The notes under the pieces were generated by a model that did not search any database, was not told the DNA's origin, and saw nothing but the letters and a program-made list of their open reading frames with translations. A DNA stretch of 64,000 bases from Nocardioides panzhihuensis (lineage in GTDB: Bacteria > Actinomycetota > Actinomycetes > Propionibacteriales > Nocardioidaceae), in NCBI RefSeq assembly GCF_013408335.1, contig NZ_JACBZR010000001.1, positions 1,922,001 to 1,986,000 on the forward strand, read 5' to 3'. The translations under genes and the position numbers were made by a program. Below, piece by piece: positions 6,210-17,591 of the stretch; position 1 is the stretch's first letter, and each line of letters opens with the position of its first letter.

Positions 6210-6749
6210 CTAGGTCGCCACGATGATGTCGGCGCGGGCGGCGGTCTGGTCGCGGGCGAAGTGTTCGGTCTCGGCCGCCGCCCAGGCTTCCCAGTGGGGC
6301 GCGAAGGTGTCGCCGTCGCGGTCGATGCCGCGTCGCCGTCGCTCGTCCTCGGGCGCGTCGACCCAGGCGAGGGCGGTGCGGAAGCCGTCGTATGCGGCGG
6401 CGCCGCTGCCGACGCCCTCGATGACGAGCAGCGGGCTCGGTGGGACCAGCACGGTCTCGGCGAGCTCGCGTGCGTGCCAGTCGTAACGGCGGTAGGAGCC
6501 CGGGGCACCCTCGACGAGGGGGAGCAGGATCGTCTCGAGCTGGGCGATGCCCTCGGCGAGACCCTCCCAGCCGGCGTACAGGTCGTCCATGTGGACCACC
6601 GGCGCCTGCGTCATGTCGGCCAGGGCGGTGGCCAGCGTCGTCTTCCCGGAGCCGGCGGGGCCGTCGACGCAGATCAGCCGGCCCGGGCCGAGGGTGGCCG
6701 GGCGGCTCATCGCGATCATCAGCAGATCGGCGGAGGGGGAGTCGGTCAA
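6210..6749 (-). CDS. P-loop nucleoside/uridine kinase-like protein
   Basis: A 179-residue P-loop NTPase of the (d)NMP/uridine-kinase type. Walker A GPAGSGKTT (30-38) is followed by VVHMDDLYAGW, the aspartate-containing substrate segment. Later come VIEGVGSGAAAY and an Arg-rich lid, ERRRRGIDRDGD. The substrate cannot be told from sequence. The frame opens with TTG at 6749. ATGs at 6719 and 6710 (MIAMSRP and MSRP) are alternatives and none has a clear ribosome site. The upstream small membrane protein gene ends 1 base before, so the pair is likely cotranscribed. Confidence 0.8.
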   Translation of the reverse strand: MTDSPSADLLMIAMSRPATLGPGRLICVDGPAGSGKTTLATALADMTQAPVVHMDDLYAGWEGLAEGIAQLETILLPLVEGAPGSYRRYDWHARELAETVLVPPSPLLVIEGVGSGAAAYDGFRTALAWVDAPEDERRRRGIDRDGDTFAPHWEAWAAAETEHFARDQTAARADIIVAT

Positions 6750-6750
6750 C

Positions 6751-7215
6751 TCAGGAGATGCCGTATTTCTTCAAGATGTCGTTGACGTCGGCCAAGTCGT
6801 CGTCGTCCTCGTCGACCACCGGGCTCTTGGCCGTCCTCGGAGCGGCGACCGGGGCCGGGCCGGCCGATCCGGCGGGTGCGGCACCGGCCGTCCCCTTCCG
6901 AGCCGCACGGCTCGGCTTCTCCTTGGTGGGCAGGAAGCGGGCGAGGAAGATGAGCAGGATCGCGAGCGCGGCGATGCCGAACCCGATCCAGACCGTCGGG
7001 CTGAAGACCAGGCGCGCGGCCCAGTCGGCGATCGCGTCCACGATCCTGCCGCCGGCGCGCAGGAGGCCGGTCAGATAGGCCGCCGGGGCGAGCAGCGTCC
7101 ACCCCAGCGCCTTCACGCCGGCTCCGAGGCCACGCCGTCGGAGCGCGACCCAGGTCCAGATCGCGCCCAGAATGGTGAGCGCGGCAGCTAGTGCGAGGTA
7201 GGCGCCTTGGTCCAT
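6751..7215 (-). CDS. Small membrane protein of unknown function
   Basis: A 154-residue protein from ATG 7215 (MDQGAYLALAAAL). There are three hydrophobic stretches (about 4-22, 37-52 and 68-89), then an Ala/Pro/Lys-rich linker and an acidic tail with DEDDDDLADVNDILKKYG at the C-terminus. The membrane part plus a flexible cytosolic acidic tail is all that can be seen. I do not recognise the family. The frame is open to 7347, but that extension has no hydrophobic start and overlaps the divergent SseB-like gene. Confidence 0.65.
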   Translation of the reverse strand: MDQGAYLALAAALTILGAIWTWVALRRRGLGAGVKALGWTLLAPAAYLTGLLRAGGRIVDAIADWAARLVFSPTVWIGFGIAALAILLIFLARFLPTKEKPSRAARKGTAGAAPAGSAGPAPVAAPRTAKSPVVDEDDDDLADVNDILKKYGIS

Positions 7216-7303
7216 ACCTGCAGTCTTCCACTCTCCTGGTCGTCTGACACCCGGACTGTCCCTGATGTCGGCCCTGATGTTCCTCTGCGGTTCAATGGGG
7301 GCG

Positions 7304-7798
7304 ATGAACGAGAAGCGACTCCTCGGCACCGCGTTCCCCGGTGACACCGGAGAGACCAGCTCCGAGGTCGAGGCCGTGCTGAGGTCGTACGCCGCGGGTC
7401 AGGCCACGCATGCCGACGTGCTCACCACCTTGGCCGCTGCCCGCGTCCTGGTGCCCGTCGTCGCCGTGCTGGGCGAGGTCGAGGTCGACGAGGCCGGTCT
7501 GGCCCACGACAAGACCTCCGACATGGCCACCGTGCTGCTCACCGGGGCCGACGGGCGACAGGCGCTGCTCGGGTTCACCGGCCTGGCGCCGCTGCGGGCG
7601 TGGCAGGCCGATGCGCGGCCGGTGCCGGTCGGGTTGCGCGACGCCGCCCAGGCCGCTGTCCACGACGGGGCTGATGCCCTCGTGCTCGATCTCGCCGGGC
7701 CGGTCCCGTTCGCGATCGAGGGGGACGACCTGCGCAAGGTGGCCGAGGGCTGGCAGCTGGCGATGGTCGGGCAGCGTACGGCCTGGGTGCGCCCCTGA
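7304..7798 (+). CDS. SseB-family protein
   Basis: A 164-residue soluble protein matching the SseB N-terminal domain pattern. Hydrophobic beta strands around RVLVPVVAVLG are followed by DMATVLLTGADGRQALLGFTGLAPLRAW, where user-defined limits and 'A-F-T' strands normally occur, and VLDLAGPVPFAIEGDDL. The function of the family is not established. In actinobacteria this gene typically precedes infC, as it does here. The ATG at 7304 has a GGGGG stretch upstream; an ATG at 7265 would add 13 residues. It is divergent from the small membrane protein gene, 88 bases apart. Confidence 0.78.
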   Translation: MNEKRLLGTAFPGDTGETSSEVEAVLRSYAAGQATHADVLTTLAAARVLVPVVAVLGEVEVDEAGLAHDKTSDMATVLLTGADGRQALLGFTGLAPLRAWQADARPVPVGLRDAAQAAVHDGADALVLDLAGPVPFAIEGDDLRKVAEGWQLAMVGQRTAWVRP

Positions 7799-7830
7799 GG
7801 GGCTGACCGACGCCCGGAGCGCTCCGGGGA

Positions 7831-7860
7831 TTGGTCCGGTGCGGAATGTTGCAGTAATGT
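7831..7860 (+). promoter_or_regulatory. Candidate promoter of the infC operon
   Basis: TTGGTC at 7831-7836 and TAATGT at 7855-7860 are separated by 18 bases, a plausible housekeeping sigma -35/-10 pair. Initiation would be near 7867, giving an infC leader of about 300 bases. This was chosen by eye and is not proven. Confidence 0.4.
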
Positions 7861-8053
7861 TCCGTGTTGACCGATCAGACCGACGTACGCCGTCGTTCTG
7901 ATCCAACAAGCGGAGATCACGAAAGCGTTCTCCCACCCGCATCGACCGCAAGCAACAAAGGTCGTCGGGTCCGGTCCCGAAGAAGATGTCCCAGGAAACT
8001 GATGGGTCAGAGGATTCGGTGGTGCGAGCCCTGCTCGGGTGAGCGTCCTGACT

Positions 8054-8090
8054 GGCTTCCGCTTGTGACAATCAAGCGGAAGCCTTTTTT
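8054..8090 (+). terminator. Intrinsic terminator in the infC leader (attenuator candidate)
   Basis: A perfect 12-bp stem: GGCTTCCGCTTG (8054-8065) pairs with CAAGCGGAAGCC (8073-8084) across a 7-base loop, followed at once by six T residues (8085-8090). This is an unusually canonical terminator for so GC-rich a genome. It sits 76 bases before the infC start, not after a gene, which points to premature termination as a control step. Confidence 0.85.
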
Positions 8091-8166
8091 GATTTCCGGA
8101 CCGCCCGTGCACGCGGCCCGGAGACCGAGATCCAGAGCCTCCGCAGCCACAACAACTGGAGGACAC

Positions 8167-8850
8167 ATCAGCACTGAGCTTCGTATCAACGATCGGATCC
8201 GGGTTCCCGAGGTCCGCCTCGTTGGTCCCAACGGAGAGACGGTCGGCATCGTGCCGACCCCTGACGCGCTGCGCCTGGCCCAGGAGGCCGACCTCGACCT
8301 GGTCGAGATCGCCCCGCAGGGCAAGCCGCCGGTCTGCAAGCTCATGGACTACGGGAAGTTCAAGTACGAGAACGCCCAGAAGGCCCGTGAAACCCGTCGA
8401 AACCAGACGAACGTCATCATCAAGGAGATGAAGCTTCGTCCGAAGATCGACAAGCACGACTACGAGACCAAGAAGGGTCACGTAGTGCGGTTCCTCAACG
8501 CCGGGGACAAGGTCAAGATCACGATCATGTTCCGCGGTCGTGAGCAGCACCGTCCCGAGCTCGGTTTCCGCCTGCTGCAGCAGCTGGCCGACGACGTCGC
8601 GGAGCTGGGCTTCGTCGAGTCCTCGCCGAAGCAGGACGGCCGCAACATGATCATGGTGCTCGGGCCGCACAAGAAGAAGGCCGACGCCAAGGTCGAGGCC
8701 AAGGAGGCCAAGGAGGAGAAGGCCGCCGAGCGCGCCGCCGACGAGGCCGCCGAGAAGGCGGAGCGTACGGCCGCGAACGCTGCCCGTCCGGTCTCCGCCC
8801 CGAAGGCCAAGCGCCGCTCGGAGAACCTCGACCCCGACATCGACGTCTGA
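8167..8850 (+). CDS. infC: Translation initiation factor IF-3, ATC start
   Basis: Binds the 30S subunit and checks start-codon fidelity. The homologous protein begins [18 protein letters not shown]. The codon at that point is ATC (8167-8169), with a perfect GGAGG four bases upstream (8158-8162) and no ATG/GTG/TTG nearby in frame. The first in-frame GTG is at 8107 and would add a non-conserved Arg/Ala/Thr stretch. Rare AUU/AUC starts in infC are a known autoregulatory device because IF3 itself rejects such codons. N-domain residues are about 1-75, the C-domain about 85-165. The last 60 residues are an Ala/Lys/Glu-rich charged tail typical of actinobacterial IF3. It leads rpmI and rplT. Confidence 0.93.
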
Positions 8851-8925
8851 GCCTCCCTGGCCCAGCAAGAGACTTCCGCCGCCGCGGCGCCCCGTGACCG
8901 GCCGGACGACGAGAGAGAGAAGAAC

Positions 8926-9138
8926 ATGCCGAAGAACAAGACCCACTCCGGTTCCAAGAAGCGCTTCAAGGTGACCGGTTCCGGGAAGATCCAGCGCCTG
9001 CAGGCCGGCCGCAAGTCCGGCGCTGCGTTCGCCTCTGCGCCGACGACCGGTTCGCGCAAGAAGCACCGTCGCAACGCTGGCTTGGTGGAGCTCGCTCCCG
9101 CCGACGTCAAGCGCGCGAAGAGGCTTCTCGGTCGCTGA
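8926..9138 (+). CDS. rpmI: Ribosomal protein L35
   Basis: A 70-residue basic protein of the large ribosomal subunit. The MPKNKTHSGSKKRFKVTGSGK opening and the RKKHRRNAG segment are diagnostic of L35. Full normal length. A purine-rich AGAGAGAGAAG stretch precedes the ATG. It lies between infC and rplT in the universal IF3-L35-L20 operon, sharing the infC leader control. Confidence 0.98.
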   Translation: MPKNKTHSGSKKRFKVTGSGKIQRLQAGRKSGAAFASAPTTGSRKKHRRNAGLVELAPADVKRAKRLLGR

Positions 9139-9185
9139 CCGTCTGATCACCCGAACTTTCCCCAAAGCATTCAAGGAGCATTGAA

Positions 9186-9569
9186 ATGGCACGCGTCAAG
9201 CGCGCAGTGAACGCTGCGAAGAAGCGTCGCACCACCCTCGAGCGGGCCTCCGGTTACCGTGGCCAGCGCTCGCGCCTCTACCGCAAGGCGAAGGAGCAGG
9301 TCACTCACTCCCTGGTCTACGCCTACAACGACCGCCGCAAGAACAAGGGCAACTTCCGCAAGCTGTGGATCCAGCGGATCAACGCGGCTGCGCGTGCGGA
9401 GGGCATGACCTACAACCGCTTCATCCAGGGTCTCCACCTGGCCGGCATCGAGGTCGACCGCAAGATCCTCGCCGACCTCGCCGTCAACGACGTGGCCGCG
9501 TTCAACGCGATCGTCGCCCAGGCCAAGGCTGCGCTGCCTGAGGACGTCAACGCCCCGGCGAACGCCTGA
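9186..9569 (+). CDS. rplT: Ribosomal protein L20
   Basis: A 127-residue rRNA-binding protein needed early in 50S assembly. The start [26 protein letters not shown] carries the extended basic N-terminal tail, followed by [27 protein letters not shown], which is strongly conserved in L20. AAGGAG lies just upstream of the ATG. L20 represses its own operon in several bacteria; whether the hairpins in the infC leader respond to L20 here is not known. It is followed 5 bases later by the trmH-family gene. Confidence 0.98.
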
Positions 9570-9574
9570 GTCAT

Positions 9575-10348
9575 ATGACGCCTCTGTCTGCGGCGAACGC
9601 CCGCGTCAAAGAGGCTCGCAAGTTGAGCCGCCGCTCGGTACGCACCGAGCGGCGGCTCTTCGTTGCCGACGGCCCGAAGGCGGTCGAGGGTGCGCTCGGT
9701 GTCCCGGGCTGTGTGCAGGAGATCTTCGCGACCGAAGCCGGAGCCGAGGCGTACGCCTCGGTACTGGCCGACCAGCCGGTCACGCTCGTCGATGACCGAG
9801 CGATGGCGGGGCTCTCCGACTCGGTCACCCCGGCCGGGGTGGTGGCACTGTGCCGTTTCCTGGACGTTCCGCTCGCCGACATCTCCGGCCCGCTCGTGGT
9901 GGTCTGTGCCGACGTACGCGACCCCGGCAACGCCGGCACCGTCATCCGGTGCGCCGACGCGGCCGGTGCCTCCGGGGTCATCCTCGCGGGCGACTCGGTC
10001 GACCTCTACAACCCCAAGACCATCCGAGCCTCGGTCGGCTCCGCGTTCCACCTCCCGGTCGCCATCGAGCGCGACCCACTGGCGGCGGTCAAGGCCGCCA
10101 AGGCCGCGGGCCTGACCGTCCTGGCCGCCGACATGCACGGCACGGCCGATCTCTTCACCGCCGACGAGCTCCTCGCCCGACCCACTGCCTGGCTGATGGG
10201 CAACGAGGCCTGGGGTATCCCGGCCGAGCTCGCCGCCGAGGCCGACGAGATCGTGAGCATCCCGATCTTCGGCAAGGCCGAGTCGCTCAACCTCTCCACC
10301 GCTGCCGCGCTCTGTCTCTACGCCTCGGCGCGGGCTCAGCGCCGGTGA
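9575..10348 (+). CDS. TrmH/SpoU-family RNA 2'-O-methyltransferase
   Basis: A 257-residue SPOUT-class methyltransferase modifying rRNA or tRNA with SAM. An N-terminal substrate-binding domain (residues 1-100) precedes the SPOUT knot: motif 1 DVRDPGNAGTVIRCADAAGA (about 114-133), motif 2 LMGNEAWGIP (about 206-215) and motif 3 IPIFGKAESLNLSTAAALCLY. It occupies the tsnR position downstream of rplT in actinobacteria. The exact target (a 23S site such as that of RlmB or thiostrepton-type methylases) is unresolved. Codons 17-28 form a perfect 15-bp hairpin at DNA level (9625-9658), described separately. Confidence 0.92.
   Translation: MTPLSAANARVKEARKLSRRSVRTERRLFVADGPKAVEGALGVPGCVQEIFATEAGAEAYASVLADQPVTLVDDRAMAGLSDSVTPAGVVALCRFLDVPLADISGPLVVVCADVRDPGNAGTVIRCADAAGASGVILAGDSVDLYNPKTIRASVGSAFHLPVAIERDPLAAVKAAKAAGLTVLAADMHGTADLFTADELLARPTAWLMGNEAWGIPAELAAEADEIVSIPIFGKAESLNLSTAAALCLYASARAQRR
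9625..9658 (+). terminator. Terminator-like hairpin inside the start of the trmH gene
   Basis: GAGCCGCCGCTCGGT (9625-9639) and ACCGAGCGGCGGCTC (9644-9658) form a perfect 15-bp stem with loop ACGC, followed by TTCGTT. It starts 56 bases after the rplT stop and lies wholly in trmH codons (SRRSVRTERRL). The position suggests it ends or attenuates most infC-rpmI-rplT transcripts while letting some pass into trmH. There is no long U-run, as is common in actinobacteria. Confidence 0.6.
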
Positions 10349-10376
10349 ATGCTCACCGAGGTGACTCGGTGAGCAT
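10349..10376 (+). terminator. Hairpin terminator after trmH
   Basis: Immediately after the TGA of the trmH gene, 12-base arms ATGCTCACCGAG and CTCGGTGAGCAT pair perfectly with a 4-base loop (GTGA). There is no U-tract. Its position right behind the stop and its stability suggest an I-shaped actinobacterial terminator. It is followed by the 21-bp repeat array. Confidence 0.7.
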
Positions 10377-10393
10377 CCCGCCCTCTCCGGCAC

Positions 10394-10546
10394 GCCGAGG
10401 CGTCACTCCCGTCGGCCGAAGCGTCACTCTCACTGGCCGAGGCGTCGCTCGCGTCGGCCGAGTGGGCACTTCGGTGACGTCTCGGCCGACGTACGTGACG
10501 TCTCGGCCGACGTGCGTGACGTCTCGGCCGACGTACGTGACGCTTC
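10394..10546. repeat. Mirrored 21-bp repeat array, copy A
   Basis: Three direct 21-base units (10394-10414, 10415-10435, 10436-10456), each starting GCCGARGCGTC, lead into a 27-base centre (10457-10483, containing GTGGGCAC). Three units in the opposite orientation follow (10484-10504, 10505-10525, 10526-10546), each containing GTGACG and starting GGCCGACGT. The two flanks are inverted copies of one unit, so the whole can fold into one long imperfect hairpin. Copy B at 48094-48225 has the same plan, inverted. The right end stops 8 bases before the -35 of the merR-like promoter. Confidence 0.85.
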
Positions 10547-10554
10547 GGCGGGGC

Positions 10555-10585
10555 TTGACCTTCAACTCGCGTGAAGGACGATGGT
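10555..10585 (+). promoter_or_regulatory. MerR-type promoter with 19-bp spacer
   Basis: TTGACC (-35, 10555-10560) and GATGGT (-10, 10580-10585) are 19 bases apart, the over-long spacing typical of MerR-regulated promoters. Between them lies the inverted repeat CCTTCA / TGAAGG (10559-10564 and 10572-10577). Transcription start would fall at about 10592-10593, exactly the ATG of the regulator, implying a leaderless, self-regulated message. Confidence 0.8.
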
Positions 10586-10592
10586 TGCAGGC

Positions 10593-11636
10593 ATGGATGA
10601 GCCACTGTTGACGATCGGGGCGTTCGCACGGGCCGTGGGCCTGACCGCGAGCGCGCTGCGTCACTACGACGAGTGCGGGTTGCTGGTGCCGGCGGAGGTC
10701 GACACCGGGACGGGCTATCGCTACTACACGCCCGAGCTCGCCGACCGGGCTCGGCTGATCGTCGGCATGCGCGAGGCGGGAGTCCCGATCGAGACGATGC
10801 GGGTGGTCCTCGACTCGCCGACTGGTGAGGCCAGGGCCGCACTGGCGGAGTTCCTCGAGGACCAGAGTGCACGCACGGCGCGGGCCGAGGAGGCCGTACG
10901 CGGCGTCCTGGCCGCCGTCGACGCCGGGCCTGCCGCTAGGCCGGCGCTCGTCGAGCTCCCCGGTCCCGTGCTGGCAGCGGCGATCCGTCAGGTGCGGCAC
11001 GCAGCCGAGTCCGATCCGGCCTCCGAGCTCGCCTCGGTCCTTGTCGACGTCGGGGGCGCCGGCGTCGACGTGGTGGCCACCAACCGCTACTGGATGGCGG
11101 TTCGATCACTGCCAGCAGCTGCGGAAGGCGACGGTGGTCGAGCGGTGCTGGCCCTGCCCGATGCCGTGGCACTGGCCGACCGGCTCGACGCGATCACCAC
11201 GGCCGAGCTCCACATCGCCGACGGCACCCTGACGCTCGTCGGACAGGAGCTGGGTCGCGACACCACCTACCCGGCCCACCGGCTCGTGCTCGGCGGGCTC
11301 GAGCCTGCCTCCACCCGCGCAGTCCTCACCAAGGCCGACCTGCTCGCCGGCCTCGATGCGGCCGCCTACGCCGAGGTCGACCTCTTCCTCGGCGAGCAGA
11401 CACGTCTTCGCTCGCCGAGCACTGCCGAGCAGATCGACGTACGCGGCGTGGTGACCGGCCCGCCGATCCGGCTCCGGCTCGGCACGGCCCTGTTCGGGCG
11501 CGCGCTGGTTGCGTCCCTGGGGGAGGAGGTGCAGCTGGCGGTGACCGCGCCCGACCGGCCGATGGTGCTCACCTCGCCGTACCAGCCCGGTTTCACCGCG
11601 TTGGTCATGCCTGTGCGCCACGACCCCGCCGGCTGA
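10593..11636 (+). CDS. MerR-family regulator fused to beta-clamp-like domains
   Basis: A 347-residue protein. Residues 5-75 are a MerR winged helix: LLTIGAFARAVGLTASALRHY, then GLLVPAEVDTGTGYRYYT. A dimerisation helix follows. From about residue 122 the sequence follows DNA polymerase III beta-clamp domains 2 and 3. VDVVATNRYWMAVRSL (about 157-172) matches the clamp V-A-T-D-x-x-R-L-A strand, LVLGG follows a YPAHR turn, and the C-terminus ends ALVMPVR like DnaN. Clamp domain 1 is replaced by the HTH. What the clamp part senses or binds is unknown. The ATG at 10593 is chosen because the MerR-type promoter would start transcription there; ATG 10581 lies within the -10. An MFS exporter starts 1 base after the stop. 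Confidence 0.85.
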   Translation: MDEPLLTIGAFARAVGLTASALRHYDECGLLVPAEVDTGTGYRYYTPELADRARLIVGMREAGVPIETMRVVLDSPTGEARAALAEFLEDQSARTARAEEAVRGVLAAVDAGPAARPALVELPGPVLAAAIRQVRHAAESDPASELASVLVDVGGAGVDVVATNRYWMAVRSLPAAAEGDGGRAVLALPDAVALADRLDAITTAELHIADGTLTLVGQELGRDTTYPAHRLVLGGLEPASTRAVLTKADLLAGLDAAAYAEVDLFLGEQTRLRSPSTAEQIDVRGVVTGPPIRLRLGTALFGRALVASLGEEVQLAVTAPDRPMVLTSPYQPGFTALVMPVRHDPAG

Positions 11637-11637
11637 G

Positions 11638-12837
11638 ATGAACGTGTATAGACCGGCTCGGGGGTTCCGCCTCTGGCTGGCGGCATCGACCGCGTCCGTC
11701 TTCGGTGACTCGGTGACCTTCTTCGCGATCGGCTGGGCCGCGGCGGGCTTCGGCGCCGACGCGGCCAGCCTGGTGCTGACCGTCGAGGGCATCCCGCTCG
11801 CGGTGCTGGTGCTCGCTGGGGGAGTGCTCGCCGACCGGATCGGTATCCGGCGCACGATGGCCGCGTGCGATGCCGCGATGGTGCTGCTCATGGTTGCGTT
11901 CGCCTTCGGTGCGATCGGTGGCGCCGAGCTGTGGCTGCTGGTCGGGGTCGGCGCCCTGTCGGGCACGATCCAGGCGCTTCGCCGACCCGCTGAGGGGGTC
12001 TTCCCGCGGTTGTTCGGCACCGAGCATCTGGACCGGAGGATGGCTCTAGTCGGCTCGGCCCACCAGGTCGCTCGCGCCGCGGGGCCCGCGGTCGGCGGCT
12101 TCCTGATCGGCCACGGCGGTCTGCCGTTGACCGCCGGCCTGGACGCCGCGACCTTCGCACTCGTGCTCGTCGCGCTGCTGGCGATCCGCCCGCCGCACGA
12201 GCCGACCCCCGACCCTGACCATGGCTCGGTCTGGCACAGCCTGACCGACGGTGCCAGGACGGCGGTGCGTACGCCCGGGGTCGTCCCTGTTCTGGTCGCC
12301 ATCACCGGCCTCGCCGCGACGGTGCTCCCGCTGGTGATGCTCGCGCTGCCGCTCGCCGGTCGCGAGCGTGGTTGGACGGCGGCCCAGACCGGGCTCGTCT
12401 CCGGCGCCTGGGTGGCCGGGGGACTGGTGGTGACCCTCGCGGTGGCTCGCTGGGGTGCCCCGCGCGCGCCCGTCGCGGTCGCCGGCCCGGCGCTGGCGGC
12501 CGGCGGGGTGCTCCTGCTGGCGGTGCGTACGGAGATCTGGGCAGGGATCCTCGCGATCGGCCTCGTCGGCGTCGGCACCACCATGCTGACCACGTACCTC
12601 TTCCCGGCCTACGTCGCGCGCACCCCGCCGGAGATGCTCGCCCGGTTCTCGAGCCTGACCCAGCTGGCCCAGACGGGACCGGTCCTGCTGGCGACACCGC
12701 TGCTCGGAGTGGCGGCCGGGGTCGACGTACGGCTGGCTCTTGCCGTCATCGCCGCACTGCTCCTGGCCACCGTGCCGGCGGCTGTCCGGGTCGCGCGGTT
12801 GCCTCAGCCCGGCGATCTCGCGGGGATCAGCGGGTAA
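11638..12837 (+). CDS. MFS transporter (drug-efflux-like)
   Basis: A 399-residue major facilitator with about twelve hydrophobic segments. The loop between helices 2 and 3 has LADRIGIRRTM, the family A motif (G-x-x-x-D-R-x-G-R-R). The N-terminal RLWLAASTASVFGDSVTFFAIGW matches the enterobactin/macrolide exporter-like branch of MFS. It starts 1 base after the MerR-clamp gene, so it is very likely induced by that regulator, probably in response to a compound it exports. The substrate is unknown. No terminator is obvious in the 103-base gap to the next gene. Confidence 0.88.
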   Translation: MNVYRPARGFRLWLAASTASVFGDSVTFFAIGWAAAGFGADAASLVLTVEGIPLAVLVLAGGVLADRIGIRRTMAACDAAMVLLMVAFAFGAIGGAELWLLVGVGALSGTIQALRRPAEGVFPRLFGTEHLDRRMALVGSAHQVARAAGPAVGGFLIGHGGLPLTAGLDAATFALVLVALLAIRPPHEPTPDPDHGSVWHSLTDGARTAVRTPGVVPVLVAITGLAATVLPLVMLALPLAGRERGWTAAQTGLVSGAWVAGGLVVTLAVARWGAPRAPVAVAGPALAAGGVLLLAVRTEIWAGILAIGLVGVGTTMLTTYLFPAYVARTPPEMLARFSSLTQLAQTGPVLLATPLLGVAAGVDVRLALAVIAALLLATVPAAVRVARLPQPGDLAGISG

Positions 12838-12940
12838 CGGACACCGCCCGCCGGGGATACCCGTGGGGGTCTGATACACGAAAGGCAAACCTGTTTCACT
12901 CGGATGCGGAAGCTCTCCAGGCGTTGCGAAGGAGCACGGC

Positions 12941-14140
12941 ATGACGAACCTGAGCAGACGAAGGCTGCTGGCCTCGAGCGGTGCGGCTGCCGCGGGCGCA
13001 ACCCTCCCGCTGTGGACGTGGTCGCCGAGTGCCTCGATCGCGGGCACGGGAGCGGGCCTCGACCCCGATCACGTCTGGGACGTCCGCGCCGATCCGGTCA
13101 TCGAGCGCCTCTACGGCGAGGGGATCGACAAGGTCGCCGAGGTCAACGAGATCCTGAAAAGCTGGACCACCAACGACCAGCCGCTTCCCGGTGGTCTGCC
13201 GGGCTACCTGGTCGACTTCATCGAGGAGGCGCGCCGGCTCCCGGCCTGGGCCGACCAGGGGAAGCTGAAGCTGGCCGGCACGTTCAACGAGGAGAAGTAC
13301 GGCTTCTTCCTCGCTCTCCTCTACACCCTCGGCAGCGGCCTGATCAGCTGCGCGATCAAGCGCGAGGCCTGGTCGGTCTACTACTCCTACGGCGGGTCCG
13401 ACATGCGCGACCGGATCGCCAAGACGACCGTGCTCGGCTACGACGTGATGGACGCCCAGGGCTGGACCGCATCGGGCCGGCTCATGGTGAACTCGGTCAA
13501 GACCAGGATGGTCCACGCCGCGGTGCGTCATCTCCTGCCGCAGTCTCCCCACTGGTCGAGCGTCGGTGCCGGGCAGAAGATCCCGATCAGCCAGGCCGAC
13601 ATCCTGGTCACCTTCCACAGCCTTGGCACCTGGGTGATGAAGAAGTTCACCGAGTGGAACATCGAGCCGACCCAGGAGCTCGCCGACGCGTTCCTGCACG
13701 CCTGGAACGTCGACCTCCACCTCCTCGGCGTGCAGGAGCAGTATCTGCCGAAGGACTGGTCCGCGGCGTACTCACAGTACGACCAGGTGATGGGCCCGGC
13801 GACCGGCGGCACGCGGGAGGGCGTCGAGCTCGCCCAGGCACTGCTCGACTCGGTGATCGGCGAGGGCAACCCGCTGCTGCGCCACGAGCTGGAGTCGCTG
13901 GGGCGGTACGTGATCGGGGATGCGTACGCCGACATGATCGGCTTCGACAAGGACCCGCTGCTCGCGTCGCTGTGGGCGACCACGGTGCCGCTGCTGGTGA
14001 CCTCCTACCAGAGCACCGTCCCCAACATCCCGATCGTCTCCAACCTGCTCCCGGAGGCAGTGCACACCTTCATCAAGATCTACTTCTCGCCCGGAGACCC
14101 GGCGCCGATCACGCTGCCGTTGGGCAATCGGCCGCAGTAG
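12941..14140 (+). CDS. lcp: DUF2236 haem oxygenase, latex-clearing-protein (Lcp)-like
   Basis: A 399-residue secreted protein with a twin-arginine signal (SRRRLLASSGAAAAGATLPLW). The DUF2236 core is present. Residues E142, R158, K161, T162, R189 and H192 are spaced exactly like E148, R164, K167, T168, R195 and H198 of the Streptomyces K30 latex-clearing protein as I recall its numbering, with the axial-haem histidine in KTRMVHAAVRHLL. Lcp enzymes cleave poly(cis-1,4-isoprene) outside the cell. The signal, length (Lcp about 400) and these residues support Lcp rather than a generic MpaB-type oxygenase. GAAGGAG lies upstream of the ATG. No isoprenoid-uptake genes are next to it. Confidence 0.75.
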   Translation: MTNLSRRRLLASSGAAAAGATLPLWTWSPSASIAGTGAGLDPDHVWDVRADPVIERLYGEGIDKVAEVNEILKSWTTNDQPLPGGLPGYLVDFIEEARRLPAWADQGKLKLAGTFNEEKYGFFLALLYTLGSGLISCAIKREAWSVYYSYGGSDMRDRIAKTTVLGYDVMDAQGWTASGRLMVNSVKTRMVHAAVRHLLPQSPHWSSVGAGQKIPISQADILVTFHSLGTWVMKKFTEWNIEPTQELADAFLHAWNVDLHLLGVQEQYLPKDWSAAYSQYDQVMGPATGGTREGVELAQALLDSVIGEGNPLLRHELESLGRYVIGDAYADMIGFDKDPLLASLWATTVPLLVTSYQSTVPNIPIVSNLLPEAVHTFIKIYFSPGDPAPITLPLGNRPQ

Positions 14141-14161
14141 CGCCCGGACGCCGTGGGCGGT

Positions 14162-14353
14162 CTAGTGGCGCGTCCCGGAAGTTCCTAGGCGCTTCGCGCC
14201 GCCATGGCACGCACCCTTCGACAAGCTCAGGACATCGCCTCGCGGCGTTGGCGCCGCTCGGAAGACGCCCGGTATGACTTCGCGACGCCGGCCTTGCGAT
14301 GCACGCACCCTGACGACGCCAAGCATCCAGGAACTTCCAGGACGCACCACTAG
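14162..14353. mobile_element. MITE-like element with 27-bp terminal inverted repeats
   Basis: The ends match in inverted orientation over 27 bases with three mismatches. The left end (from 14162) begins CTAGTGGCGCGTCC and the right end, read inward from 14353, begins CTAGTGGTGCGTCC. The outer CTAG on both sides may be a target duplication (YTAR, as for IS5-group elements). The 192-bp body has no ORF. It contains TTCGACAAGCTCAGGA at 14218-14233, a widely dispersed environmental-genome repeat whose reverse strand reads LSLSKG. It ends 9 bases before the histidine-kinase start and so must supply that gene's upstream region. Confidence 0.7.
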
Positions 14354-14362
14354 GGTATCGGC

Positions 14363-15457
14363 GTGGACGCCAGAGAACTCGCCGATGCCCTGCCCGACGG
14401 TGTCGTCGTCGCCGATGCGGCCGGAGCGGTCGTCCTGGTCTCCGCCCTGGCCGGGCGGATGCTCGGCGTGGACCCGGGCGCGAGCCTGGGGCGGCCGCTG
14501 GGCGACGTACTCACCCTGAGCAACACCGAAGGGCAGACCTGGGCCGAGGCCAACCGGCCCTACGACACCTTGCGGACCGTCACCGGCACCCCCGAGCAGG
14601 CCTGGCTGCTGCCGGACGGCACCGAGGTGCTGGTCGTCTCGACGATCCGGCGCCCGTCCCTGAATGTGCCGGTCGACCAGGTCGCGATCTCGCTGCGCTC
14701 GGGCAGGGGCCGCAAGCGCCTGGACCGCGAGCGGTCCGACCTGGTCGCCACCGTCGCCCACGAGCTGCGCTCGCCGCTGACCGGGGTCAAGGGGTTCGTC
14801 CAGGCGCTCCTGAACCGGTGGGACAAGCTCAACGACGATCAGAAGAAGCTGATGCTCAAGACGGTCGCCTCCGACTCCGACCGGCTCTCGAGGCTGATCG
14901 CCGAGCTCCTCGACGTCGCCCGGATCGACACCGGTCGGCTGCAGCTCTATCCGCGCGCCAGCGACGCGACCGTGCTGGTCACCCGGGTGGTCGAGTCGGT
15001 GCGGTCGGCCACCTCGCGGCCGATCGAGCTCCATGTCGAGGGCGGCATCGACGGCGGCATCGAGGGCGGCATCGACGGCGGGATCGACGGCGCGGCCGAG
15101 GACGAGCTGGAGATCCACGCCGACCCGGACAAGTTCACCCAGGTCGTCACCAACCTCGTCGAGAACGCCGTACGCCACGGTGACGGTGTCGTCACCGTGA
15201 GCCTGAGTGCGTCGCCGGACGACCCCGCCCAGGTCCTGCTGGTCGTCGAGGACCACGGTGAGGGCATCCCTGCCGAGCTCCGCCAGCGCGTGTTCACGAA
15301 GTTCTGGAAGCACGGTGCCCGCGGCGGCTCCGGCCTGGGGCTCTACATCGTCGGCGGCCTCACCCACGCCCACGGTGGCACGGTCAGGATCGCTGACGCC
15401 GACAGCGGCGGCGCCCGGATCGAGGTCACCTGGCCCAGGGAGCAGCCCGCCACCTGA
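14363..15457 (+). CDS. PAS-HisKA sensor histidine kinase (soluble, orphan)
   Basis: A 364-residue kinase without membrane segments. A PAS-like sensor (residues 1-115) is followed by the H-box VAHELRSPLTGVKGF with phospho-acceptor H133, and the HATPase domain with N-box QVVTNLVENAVRHG (about 259-272), G1 VEDHGEGIP (about 295-303) and G2 GSGLGLYIVGG (about 321-331). Between DHp and N-box sits a Gly-Ile-Asp-rich insert coded by a 12-bp tandem repeat (15038-15097). No response regulator is adjacent, so the partner is elsewhere. GTG 14363 is the start used; the region before it is the MITE-like element. Confidence 0.9.
   Translation: MDARELADALPDGVVVADAAGAVVLVSALAGRMLGVDPGASLGRPLGDVLTLSNTEGQTWAEANRPYDTLRTVTGTPEQAWLLPDGTEVLVVSTIRRPSLNVPVDQVAISLRSGRGRKRLDRERSDLVATVAHELRSPLTGVKGFVQALLNRWDKLNDDQKKLMLKTVASDSDRLSRLIAELLDVARIDTGRLQLYPRASDATVLVTRVVESVRSATSRPIELHVEGGIDGGIEGGIDGGIDGAAEDELEIHADPDKFTQVVTNLVENAVRHGDGVVTVSLSASPDDPAQVLLVVEDHGEGIPAELRQRVFTKFWKHGARGGSGLGLYIVGGLTHAHGGTVRIADADSGGARIEVTWPREQPAT
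15038..15097 (+). repeat. 12-bp in-frame tandem repeat in the kinase gene
   Basis: Five consecutive 12-base units (15038, 15050, 15062, 15074, 15086) of the form GASGGCGGCATC, the last degenerate, encode repeated E/D-G-G-I. They insert about 16 residues between two beta strands of the ATPase domain. Copy number could change by slippage without a frameshift. Confidence 0.85.
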
Positions 15458-15491
15458 GACTGAGACCGCCGGGCTTGGCGGCTCGGCGGGC

Positions 15492-17591
15492 TCAGGCGCG
15501 GGAGCGGGCCAGCAGGAAGATGAAGTACGGCGCGCCGATGAGCGCGACGACGAGGCCGGCGGGGACCTGCGCAGGGCTGATCGCGGTGCGGCCGATGGTG
15601 TCGGCGACCACGAGGAGCAACGCCCCGACCAGGATGGCGACCGGGACGACCCGCGCGCTTCGTGCGCCGACGAGCGCCCGGGCGATGTGCGGGGCGACCA
15701 GGCCCACGAAGCCGACGACGCCGACCGCGGAGACAGCCATCGCGGTGAGCACCGCGGCAGTCAGCAGGATCAGCAGCCGAGCCCGCTCCGAGGAGACCCC
15801 GACGAGCCGCGGCGTGTCCTCGTCCAGCGTGAGCAGGTCGAGCTCGCGGCGTACCACGAAGGCGATCGGGATCGCGGCAGCCAGGGCGACGGCGACCGGG
15901 ATGACCTGCTCCCAGCTGCGACCGTAGGTAGAGCCGGAGAGCCAGGTGTAGATCCGCGGCGTGTCCCAGGGGTTGGAGCGCACCAGCAGGAAGGTGCTGA
16001 GGGAGACCGATCCGTACCAGACGCCGATGCCGATGAGCACCAGCCGGTCGGTGTCGATCCCGTGTCGCCAGGCCAGGCCGTAGACGAGGCCGAAGGCGAC
16101 CAGCGCACCCACTGTCGCGGCGATGAGCACGGACGTGGTCGATGCGGCGGCGGAGGTGCCGCCGCTCCAGCCCGTCGACAGACCGGTCACCACGACGACC
16201 GCGCCCACGCCCGCACCGCCGGTGATGCCGAGGATCCCGGGCTCCGCCAGCGGGTTGCGGCAGGTGGCCTGGACGAAGGAGCCGGCGAGCGCCAGGGCGC
16301 CTCCGGCGAGTACGGCCGCGGCGACACGTGGCGCCCGCTCGTCGAGCGCGAACTGGACCAGCGGGATGCCCTCGCCCTGCAACCAGGCGACGATGTCGCC
16401 GGTGTAGAGCCACTGGTGGCCGGCGAGCAGAGCGACCACGATGGCACCGAGGGTCAGGGCGAGCAGGACGACGAGAACGACGAGGAACCGGAGCCGGCTG
16501 CGGATCGTGACGGCGGCGCCGGGCGGTCGGCGGGTGGGGCCGGAGTCGCGTCCGCCGCGAGCCAGGAGCACCATCACGATGGCGCCGGCGATCGTCGTGG
16601 TCACCCCGGTCGGGACGGACATGGCCTCGTCCGGGCCCAGGGCGGCGCGGACGACGACGTCCGCGACGACGACGACGAGCGCGCCCACGAGGCCCGCGGC
16701 CGGCAGCAGCACCGCATGCCGGTTCAGGGCCGGGACGAACCGGCCCAGCAGACGCACCAAGACCGGGGCACAGAGACCGACGAAGCCGATCGGCCCCGCC
16801 AGGGTGACCGCCGCCGAGGTGAGCAGCACCGCGAGGATCGTCCCGATCGCCCGGGTTGAGCGGACCGGCACGCCGAGGACCGAGGCGGCGTCGTCGCCCG
16901 CGGAGAGCAGGTCGAGCCGGCGCGCCAGCAGCAGACCGGCGACCGTCGCGACTATCACCACCGGAGCCACCTGCCAGAACGCCTGCAGCCCGAGCTGGCT
17001 CAGTGATCCGCTGCCCCAGGCGAACAGGCTCGTCGTCTCCTCCGCGTAGAGGATGAGGAGCGTCGACGTACCGGCCTGGAGGGCGAGCGCGACGGCGGAC
17101 CCGGCCAGGATGAGGCGGGTCGTGGACGTGCCTGCGCCACCGGCGAGAGCGAGCACGATGCCGGCGGCCACCAGGCCGCCGAGGAACGCCGTGATGCCCG
17201 ACGCCCACAGGGGCACCGAGAGACCGAACGCGGCGACCAGCGTCACCGCGAAGTAGGCCCCACCGGTCACGGCCAGCGTGTCGGGAGAGGCCATCGCGTT
17301 GCGGGCGAGCGACTGGAGGAGCGCCCCGGCGACGCCGAGGGCGAACCCGACCGCGATGCCCGCGGCGAGACGTGGGATCCGCGAGCCGGTGATGATGTCC
17401 ATCGTCGACGCGGTCGCGCCGTGGATCTGCTCCCGCCCGAGCATCGCGTCGAGGAAGTCGGCGGGGCCGACCCCGGAGGTGCCCTGGGTGAGGTGCCAGC
17501 CGGCGGTCAGCAGCAGCCCGGCGAGCAGGCACAGGAGGACGACAGAGGCCCCTCCGGCACCCGCCCGCGGGGCGTTGGCGGCATCGGTCAC
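15492..17591 (-). CDS. Fused FecCD-type siderophore ABC permease (FhuB-like)
   Basis: A 699-residue inner-membrane permease made of two FecCD halves in one chain (about 20-335 and 365-690), each with about ten hydrophobic segments. Each half has the ATPase-contact glycine region (FALGVAGALLQSLARN in the first half; AGSFVQATCRNPLAEPGILGITGGAG in the second). FhuB of enterobacteria is built the same way, whereas most actinobacterial systems use separate genes. It imports a ferric siderophore together with the adjacent binding lipoprotein and ATPase. The GTG/ATG overlap of 4 bases with the lipoprotein gene indicates translational coupling. Confidence 0.92.
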   Translation of the reverse strand: MTDAANAPRAGAGGASVVLLCLLAGLLLTAGWHLTQGTSGVGPADFLDAMLGREQIHGATASTMDIITGSRIPRLAAGIAVGFALGVAGALLQSLARNAMASPDTLAVTGGAYFAVTLVAAFGLSVPLWASGITAFLGGLVAAGIVLALAGGAGTSTTRLILAGSAVALALQAGTSTLLILYAEETTSLFAWGSGSLSQLGLQAFWQVAPVVIVATVAGLLLARRLDLLSAGDDAASVLGVPVRSTRAIGTILAVLLTSAAVTLAGPIGFVGLCAPVLVRLLGRFVPALNRHAVLLPAAGLVGALVVVVADVVVRAALGPDEAMSVPTGVTTTIAGAIVMVLLARGGRDSGPTRRPPGAAVTIRSRLRFLVVLVVLLALTLGAIVVALLAGHQWLYTGDIVAWLQGEGIPLVQFALDERAPRVAAAVLAGGALALAGSFVQATCRNPLAEPGILGITGGAGVGAVVVVTGLSTGWSGGTSAAASTTSVLIAATVGALVAFGLVYGLAWRHGIDTDRLVLIGIGVWYGSVSLSTFLLVRSNPWDTPRIYTWLSGSTYGRSWEQVIPVAVALAAAIPIAFVVRRELDLLTLDEDTPRLVGVSSERARLLILLTAAVLTAMAVSAVGVVGFVGLVAPHIARALVGARSARVVPVAILVGALLLVVADTIGRTAISPAQVPAGLVVALIGAPYFIFLLARSRA

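Follow-up and report, generated by a model that had tools for sequence, protein, structure and literature searches.

A MerR-family regulator with two sliding-clamp domains in the effector position: a candidate exporter switch in Nocardioides panzhihuensis

Introduction

The sensing parts known from MerR regulators respond to metals or redox, or are GyrI-like or TipAS domains. A GyrI-like effector domain is found in BmrR and also in other MerR regulators of multidrug exporters; TipAS, a different, helical fold, is that of TipA and SkgA, which are autoregulated and neutralise drugs. BmrR and TipA are described as precedents for a dimer that, seated in a long promoter spacer, realigns the promoter on ligand binding (PMC7762955, PMC9909328). 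A clamp fold is not mentioned as a MerR sensor in the accessible sections of a MerR review (PMC9909328). The sliding clamp, DnaN, is reported to bind the motifs of all its known partners in one pocket (PMC11139829). In the E. coli clamp this pocket comprises subsite I (R152, L155, T172, G174, H175, R176, L177, P242, R246, V247, V360, M362) and subsite II (H175, N320, Y323, V344, M362, P363, M364, R365) (PMC11139829), and griselimycin and mycoplanecin are reported to occupy both (PMC10817943).

Here we analyse a gene in a 64,000-nt stretch of the Nocardioides panzhihuensis genome (the window; contig NZ_JACBZR010000001.1, positions 1,922,001 to 1,986,000). Like BmrR and similar multidrug regulators, its product has a MerR head, a long-spacer promoter and, as predicted here, an exporter target; like TipA and SkgA it would be autoregulated, as deduced from its operator. 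Its effector part, however, is a DnaN fragment where BmrR has a GyrI-like domain, and a clamp fold stands in place of the TipAS of TipA and SkgA. It has domains 2 and 3 and most of subsite I in common with DnaN, from which it differs in lacking domain 1 and the ring interface, in a changed subsite II and in the DNA-binding head fused to it. Drug biology already offers clamp copies with a role apart from replication, as described for GriR and MypR; these, however, are DnaN genes that serve as alternative targets, whereas the window regulator would be a transcription switch. The same architecture occurs in databases in Streptomyces, Nonomuraea, Kitasatospora and others, where it is known by name only, and titles and abstract beginnings in the open-licence PMC literature yielded no description or functional study of a MerR-clamp fusion. 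MerR one-component regulators with a clamp effector domain would be new to the literature covered, their architecture being already named in databases. Our preferred reading, to which we give a moderately high probability, is that the regulator is a self-regulating one-component MerR exporter switch whose sensor is a captured two-domain piece of a sliding clamp.

A MerR head fused to clamp domains 2 and 3

The regulator gene is made up as follows:

10593..11636, + strand: MerR-clamp regulator of 347 aa (whole gene, stop included)
10593..10925, + strand: MerR winged helix-turn-helix (residues 7-74) and long dimerisation helix (77-111), within residues 1-111; from PF13411, PDB matches and the AF2 model
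10935..11621, + strand: DnaN domains 2 and 3 (residues 115-343)

The head matches PF13411 (E 2.3e-15, 56.9 bits, Pfam cut-off 21.6) and PF00376 (43.5 bits, Pfam cut-off 28.2), and its PDB matches are the MerR proteins TipA, BmrR and BrlR, with TipA 2vz4 at the top (E 2.4e-12). The dimerisation helix occupies residues 77-111 of the AF2 model, and a helix after the helix-turn-helix is expected of MerR regulators; by analogy, a dimer with four clamp domains would follow from MerR dimerisation. For the remainder of the protein, single-sequence searches of Pfam, NCBIfam and PDB gave weak clamp matches, below curated cut-offs wherever such cut-offs exist (PF02767 is sub-threshold in Pfam), and we therefore turned to a family alignment and a structure model, which assign it to DnaN domains 2 and 3 by homology and predicted fold. 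The first-pass annotation of this DNA had proposed precisely this fusion, on which Pfam, the AF2 fold and homology agree, and had suggested checking it by comparing a predicted structure with DnaN; the clamp part is indeed predicted to take the DnaN fold. Its claim that the helix-turn-helix replaces clamp domain 1 is borne out too: domain 1 is missing, the structural alignment of the AF2 model beginning at DnaN residue ~123-135, and a protein of 347 aa that includes a MerR head has no space for it. Neither a GyrI-like nor a TipAS effector domain appears in the Pfam listing of the regulator at E <= 10.

Some relatives match the domain-1 model PF00712; in three such proteins (P0203, P0205, P0135) the match overlaps the domain-2 stretch and was rejected there as a cross-match rather than a full clamp. 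As a gauge of the positive DNA channel of DnaN, the net charge across four helices averages -1.9 (sd 2.6) in 57 MerR-clamps versus +0.1 (sd 1.1) in 19 DnaN. The window's own genome also has a second MerR gene with a similar head (L137, at G000:C1:5475556), which matches the family profile over positions 4-121 with 112 bits and ends before the clamp part.

An operator found at the regulator's own promoter

Three elements lie directly ahead of the gene:

10555..10560, + strand: -35 hexamer TTGACC, kept upstream of the gene across the family
10559..10577, + strand: putative MerR operator, inverted repeat CCTTCA-N7-TGAAGG, within a 19-bp spacer
10580..10585, + strand: predicted -10 hexamer GATGGT, read from the sequence, 19 bp from the -35 hexamer and 7 nt ahead of the start codon

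A palindromic operator within a 19-20 bp spacer between -35 and -10 is the mark of MerR-family promoters in PMC9909328, and the promoter of the regulator has it. As the ATG follows GATGGT by 7 nt, a leaderless mRNA is expected. A regular expression for the -35/operator region fits 59 of 60 unique loci, the window included, the remaining locus (L013) having a one-letter variant; the palindrome reaches at least 9 of 19 matches in 49 of the 60, and the clade consensuses retain the 19-bp spacer and promoter layout of the window. In the 6.3-Mb genome of the window the exact operator pattern occurs once, at the regulator, and allowing up to two mismatches adds three sites, all of which lack an intact TGAAGG arm. 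One site, at the gene, was likewise found in each of seven MFS-type relatives (7/7 genomes, chosen since their operator fits the pattern, more distant MFS-type genomes being left out). The lone clade described below has a slightly different operator. Searched with at most one mismatch, it gave a single site, at the regulator gene itself, in 11 of 12 genomes, whereas G196 has three sites; the set, chosen for a known or near fit, covers G018 and all lone-clade genomes but G257 and G554 (11 of 13). From these patterns each MerR-clamp seems to control no operon but its own, though weaker sites would escape such a search.

Neighbouring genes in the window

The genes around the regulator, whose local order starts with what we take from their translations to be an infC-like gene and rplT, are:

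9575-10348: SpoU-type rRNA methylase, just ahead of the regulator
11638..12837, + strand: MFS exporter-like gene, 1 nt past the regulator stop, the same neighbour being present in relatives
12941-14140: MpaB/Lcp-type oxygenase, following the MFS gene; its TAT-signal match is sub-threshold
14363-15457: PAS histidine kinase, after the oxygenase gene

That an MFS gene adjoins the regulator had been noted from the letters alone, and the profile searches agree: across the 1-nt gap lies a product matching PF07690 (E 5.2e-28), PF05977 (E 2.3e-14) and, under its cut-off, TIGR00900 (E 1.5e-30). A phmmer search of this protein against PDB gave no match at E <= 1e-3. In the ORF list of 6500-16000 no response regulator was noticed adjoining the PAS histidine kinase.

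Distribution and clades of MerR-clamps

Among the matches listed, the closest named relatives are proteins of Nocardioides (N. albus, N. luteus and others; 86-94% identical), and public names of relatives read 'MerR family transcriptional regulator' or 'DNA polymerase III subunit beta family protein'. Protein searches returned at least 288 and at least 1272 clusters, each from 7996 scored candidates. In sampled genomes, near-full-profile matches occur in at least 28 of 394 of the class, at least 20 of 294 of the family and at least 10 of 396 of the phylum, together with G018 from profile position 35, and all of the latter lie within the window's own class; no more than 5 or 7 candidates were scored in any one genome. 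Among the sampled Nocardioides genomes the regulator is patchy, as an accessory trait would be.

Eighty loci were reduced to 60 unique ones by dropping 20 duplicates, and their neighbours were checked by tblastn, as simple ORF calling misread frames in several GC-rich flanks. By E. coli numbering of the clamp, the residue at position 176 divides these 60 loci. Trp stands with an MFS gene in 15 loci, without one in L003 and where the contig stops in L013; Leu occurs in one locus, which has an MFS gene; Arg goes with a small TPR-like protein in 24 loci, with neither partner in 16 and with a distant MFS in two (L122 and L131). The MFS gene is thus present in 15 of 17 Trp176 loci. Eleven loci fall outside the motif filter: L010 (Trp and MFS), L020 and L034 (Arg and TPR) and L111 (Arg with neither) are MerR-clamps; L135, L137 and L138 match the family profile over the MerR part only; L136 and L182 represent a single gene (G018), whose match begins at profile position 34-35; and L151 and L158, near full-length matches, were left unclassified.

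A tree of 57 rows, from which the truncated L013, L131 and L134 were excluded (as they were from the entropy test below), has three clades: (i), an MFS clade of 16 rows, 15 with an MFS gene, beside which stands the long-branch L018, also with an MFS gene; (ii), a TPR clade of 27 rows, 23 with the TPR-like protein adjoining; and (iii), a lone clade of 13 rows with no recognised common partner, in which L122 has an MFS of 35% identity. Support is 93/93 for the MFS clade and 89/90 for the TPR clade, both under the starred level. At position 176 the MFS clade has Trp and L018 has Leu, while the remaining clades have Arg; since Trp and the MFS gene mark essentially one clade, they point to one event rather than many. 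Both types occur in the window's own family (L148, the window gene, versus L156, L157 and L159-L161 with Arg). In a quick-method tree of clamp domains, separating MerR-clamps from DnaN takes two label changes, one of them forced by strong branches, and a single fusion origin is possible on this evidence.

Export is not the family-wide output, because 24 loci have a TPR-like partner and 16 Arg-type loci have neither. Even near the window gene the pairing is incomplete: in L003, its sister in the tree, the regulator and promoter are kept, no MFS gene follows and the oxygenase gene comes directly (7045-7154). A regulator without the MFS gene counts against the exporter switch, although L003 is a MAG and an assembly fault is possible. 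Members of the lone clade include L121, L123, L124, L126-L128 and others. The TPR-like neighbour of Arg176-type MerR-clamps (for example L117 5680-6189 and L106 5601-6248) is itself conserved and occurs in Nocardia, Streptomyces and other actinobacteria.

A selectively kept pocket floor

In the regulator's own numbering the pocket residues are T163, R165, Y166, W167, M168, P227, L337, M339 and P340, matching, in order, E. coli T172, G174, H175, R176, L177, P242, V360, M362 and P363. By E. coli numbering, L155, T172, P242, V247 and M362 of subsite I are the same in the window regulator, Y175 and L360 are as in most DnaN, and M177 is similar; R152, R176 and R246 have become S, W and L, which counts against the pocket as sensor. 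In subsite II, N320, Y323 and R365 read G, L and R, two of the three being changed.

Across 57 MerR-clamps the mean entropy of subsite I is 1.03, versus 2.14 for all positions, a value reached by none of 20000 random sets, in a test that counts a gap as a letter, so that deleted columns look conserved. Subsite II, scored without the two residues that it has in common with subsite I, is average in MerR-clamps (2.12, p 0.45) and strongly kept in 19 DnaN (p 0.008). When 36 sequences are aligned, the clamp part has no invariant columns other than A162, T163, R165, P227, M339 and P340 (regulator numbering), all pocket residues or their neighbour. Pocket-residue conservation may partly reflect packing and burial. 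A further reading, which we consider very unlikely, is that the clamp piece is an inert scaffold that merely stabilises the dimer while the switch answers to something else: clamp-domain columns do vary freely on average, as the overall mean of 2.14 indicates, but subsite I is kept selectively while the interface and subsite II have decayed, and R176W is clade-specific and near-invariant (45 of 45 in one count, 16 of 17 window-clade rows in another; one 53-row count holds a duplicate, L104 = L012, and near-duplicates).

The clades differ in what else they keep. R152 is retained in none of the 57 rows and R246 in 12 of them, namely in 0 of 17 MFS, 2 of 27 TPR and 10 of 13 lone rows. The lone clade comes near the DnaN pocket, with R176 in 13 of 13 rows, N320 in 11, F/Y323 in 13 and R365 in 12. 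In the TPR clade R176 is kept in 27 of 27 rows and N320 with Y323 in 0 of 27. In the MFS clade position 176 is Trp in 16 of 17 rows (Leu in one), position 320 Gly in 15 and position 323 Leu in 16, N320 and Y323 being both changed in all 17. The hydrophobic pocket floor thus appears to be kept throughout, and the half that would bind Gln in the lone clade only.

What might such a pocket bind? The first-pass annotation had suggested a clamp-binding peptide or a griselimycin-like drug. Subsite I, largely kept, agrees with this; Trp176 and the loss of N320 and Y323 do not, so the suggestion is supported in part, given that subsite II has changed while griselimycin and mycoplanecin fill both subsites, and it seems to fit the sister lone clade better than the window gene. 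A related reading, which we hold to be unlikely, makes the clamp piece a target mimic: a DnaN decoy that binds clamp-targeting natural products of the griselimycin and mycoplanecin type and induces their export or sequestration. The kept floor would suit it. So would the lone clade, where the DnaN pocket is mostly retained and the operator, lying only at the regulator gene in 11 of 12 genomes, recalls the self-sequestering TipA; moreover, producers of clamp drugs are reported to carry a second DnaN, mypR or griR, proposed to give self-resistance. Trp176 and the altered subsite II of the window clade speak against it, since such drugs fill both subsites, as does R152, kept nowhere, and a casual, unsystematic look noticed no biosynthetic cluster beside the loci.

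Alternatively, the pocket could bind the clamp-binding motif of polymerases, clamp loader and repair proteins, and so report free partners as a sensor of replication state. The same pocket reportedly takes the motifs of all known clamp partners (PMC11139829), and subsite II with R365 is largely kept in the lone clade, yet N320 and Y323, the seat of the conserved Gln, survive in no row of the MFS or TPR clades, R152 is gone throughout and R246 is absent or nearly so in both; besides, the neighbour is exporter-like and the exact operator lies at the regulator only in the window's own genome. We therefore regard this explanation as quite improbable.

An eroded ring interface

Domain 3 contributes two hydrophobic residues, Ile272 and Leu273, to the ring interface. 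A deletion removes Leu273 from all 17 MFS-clade rows, from 22 of 27 in the TPR clade and from 7 of 13 in the lone clade. Leu, Ile or Val stands at position 272 in 0 of 17 window-clade rows, and Val in 7 of 13 lone rows; the window regulator itself has Tyr at 272 and a gap at 273. None of the three clades keeps the interface (I272, L273 and the acidic residues) whole, and its columns vary more than the average (p 0.007, 57 MerR-clamps). With erosion of the face by which domain 3 meets domain 1 of another subunit, a closed ring is unlikely. The same erosion weighs on the idea that the clamp piece enters the DnaN ring or caps it, tying transcription to replication: homology to domain 3 offers in principle a face to meet DnaN domain 1, and Val272 persists in about half of the lone rows, but the frequent deletion of Leu273 and the heightened variability of the interface columns leave us to judge it extremely improbable.

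A proposed exporter switch and its meaning

By analogy with BmrR and TipA, the exporter switch that we favour would act as a dimer within the long spacer. The regulator would dimerise via its helix and occupy its own promoter; on entry of a hydrophobic ligand into the clamp pocket the dimer would untwist the 19-bp spacer and realign the promoter; the ligand-bound regulator would then switch on itself and the MFS exporter, whose product would export the ligand. Subsite I is most likely where the ligand docks. Given Trp in place of Arg176 and an altered subsite II, and given that the clamp-binding motif and griselimycin fill both subsites, the window regulator probably has a small or short hydrophobic ligand rather than either of these. 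The lone clade would be the better candidate for a clamp-drug sensor, owing to its fuller DnaN pocket and to a sole operator found at its own gene. A broader idea, possible but rather doubtful, is that an antibiotic target was turned sensor in Actinobacteria, the MerR-fused clamp piece binding clamp-aimed compounds: the lone clade would then be sensor and sponge for clamp drugs, whereas in the window clade the pocket would have been adapted (R176W, loss of subsite II) to a different hydrophobic compound and paired with its exporter.

If true, use of the replication clamp as a ligand sensor would mean that a drug target was recycled into a detector, and a MerR-clamp could provide a reporter for new clamp-binding compounds. 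A large actinobacterial family, misleadingly named 'DNA polymerase III subunit beta family protein', would also move from replication to gene regulation.

Repeats between the methylase and the regulator

A perfect 12-nt inverted repeat directly past the methylase stop (10349-10376) is terminator-like, without an obvious T run. Between methylase and regulator, at 10394-10549, a 21-bp tandem repeat (GTGACGTCTCGGCCGACGTAC) forms inverted arrays. A 26-base piece of this array has 81 forward and 52 reverse sites in the window's own genome at up to three mismatches, and a control has 0, which marks it as an interspersed repeat.
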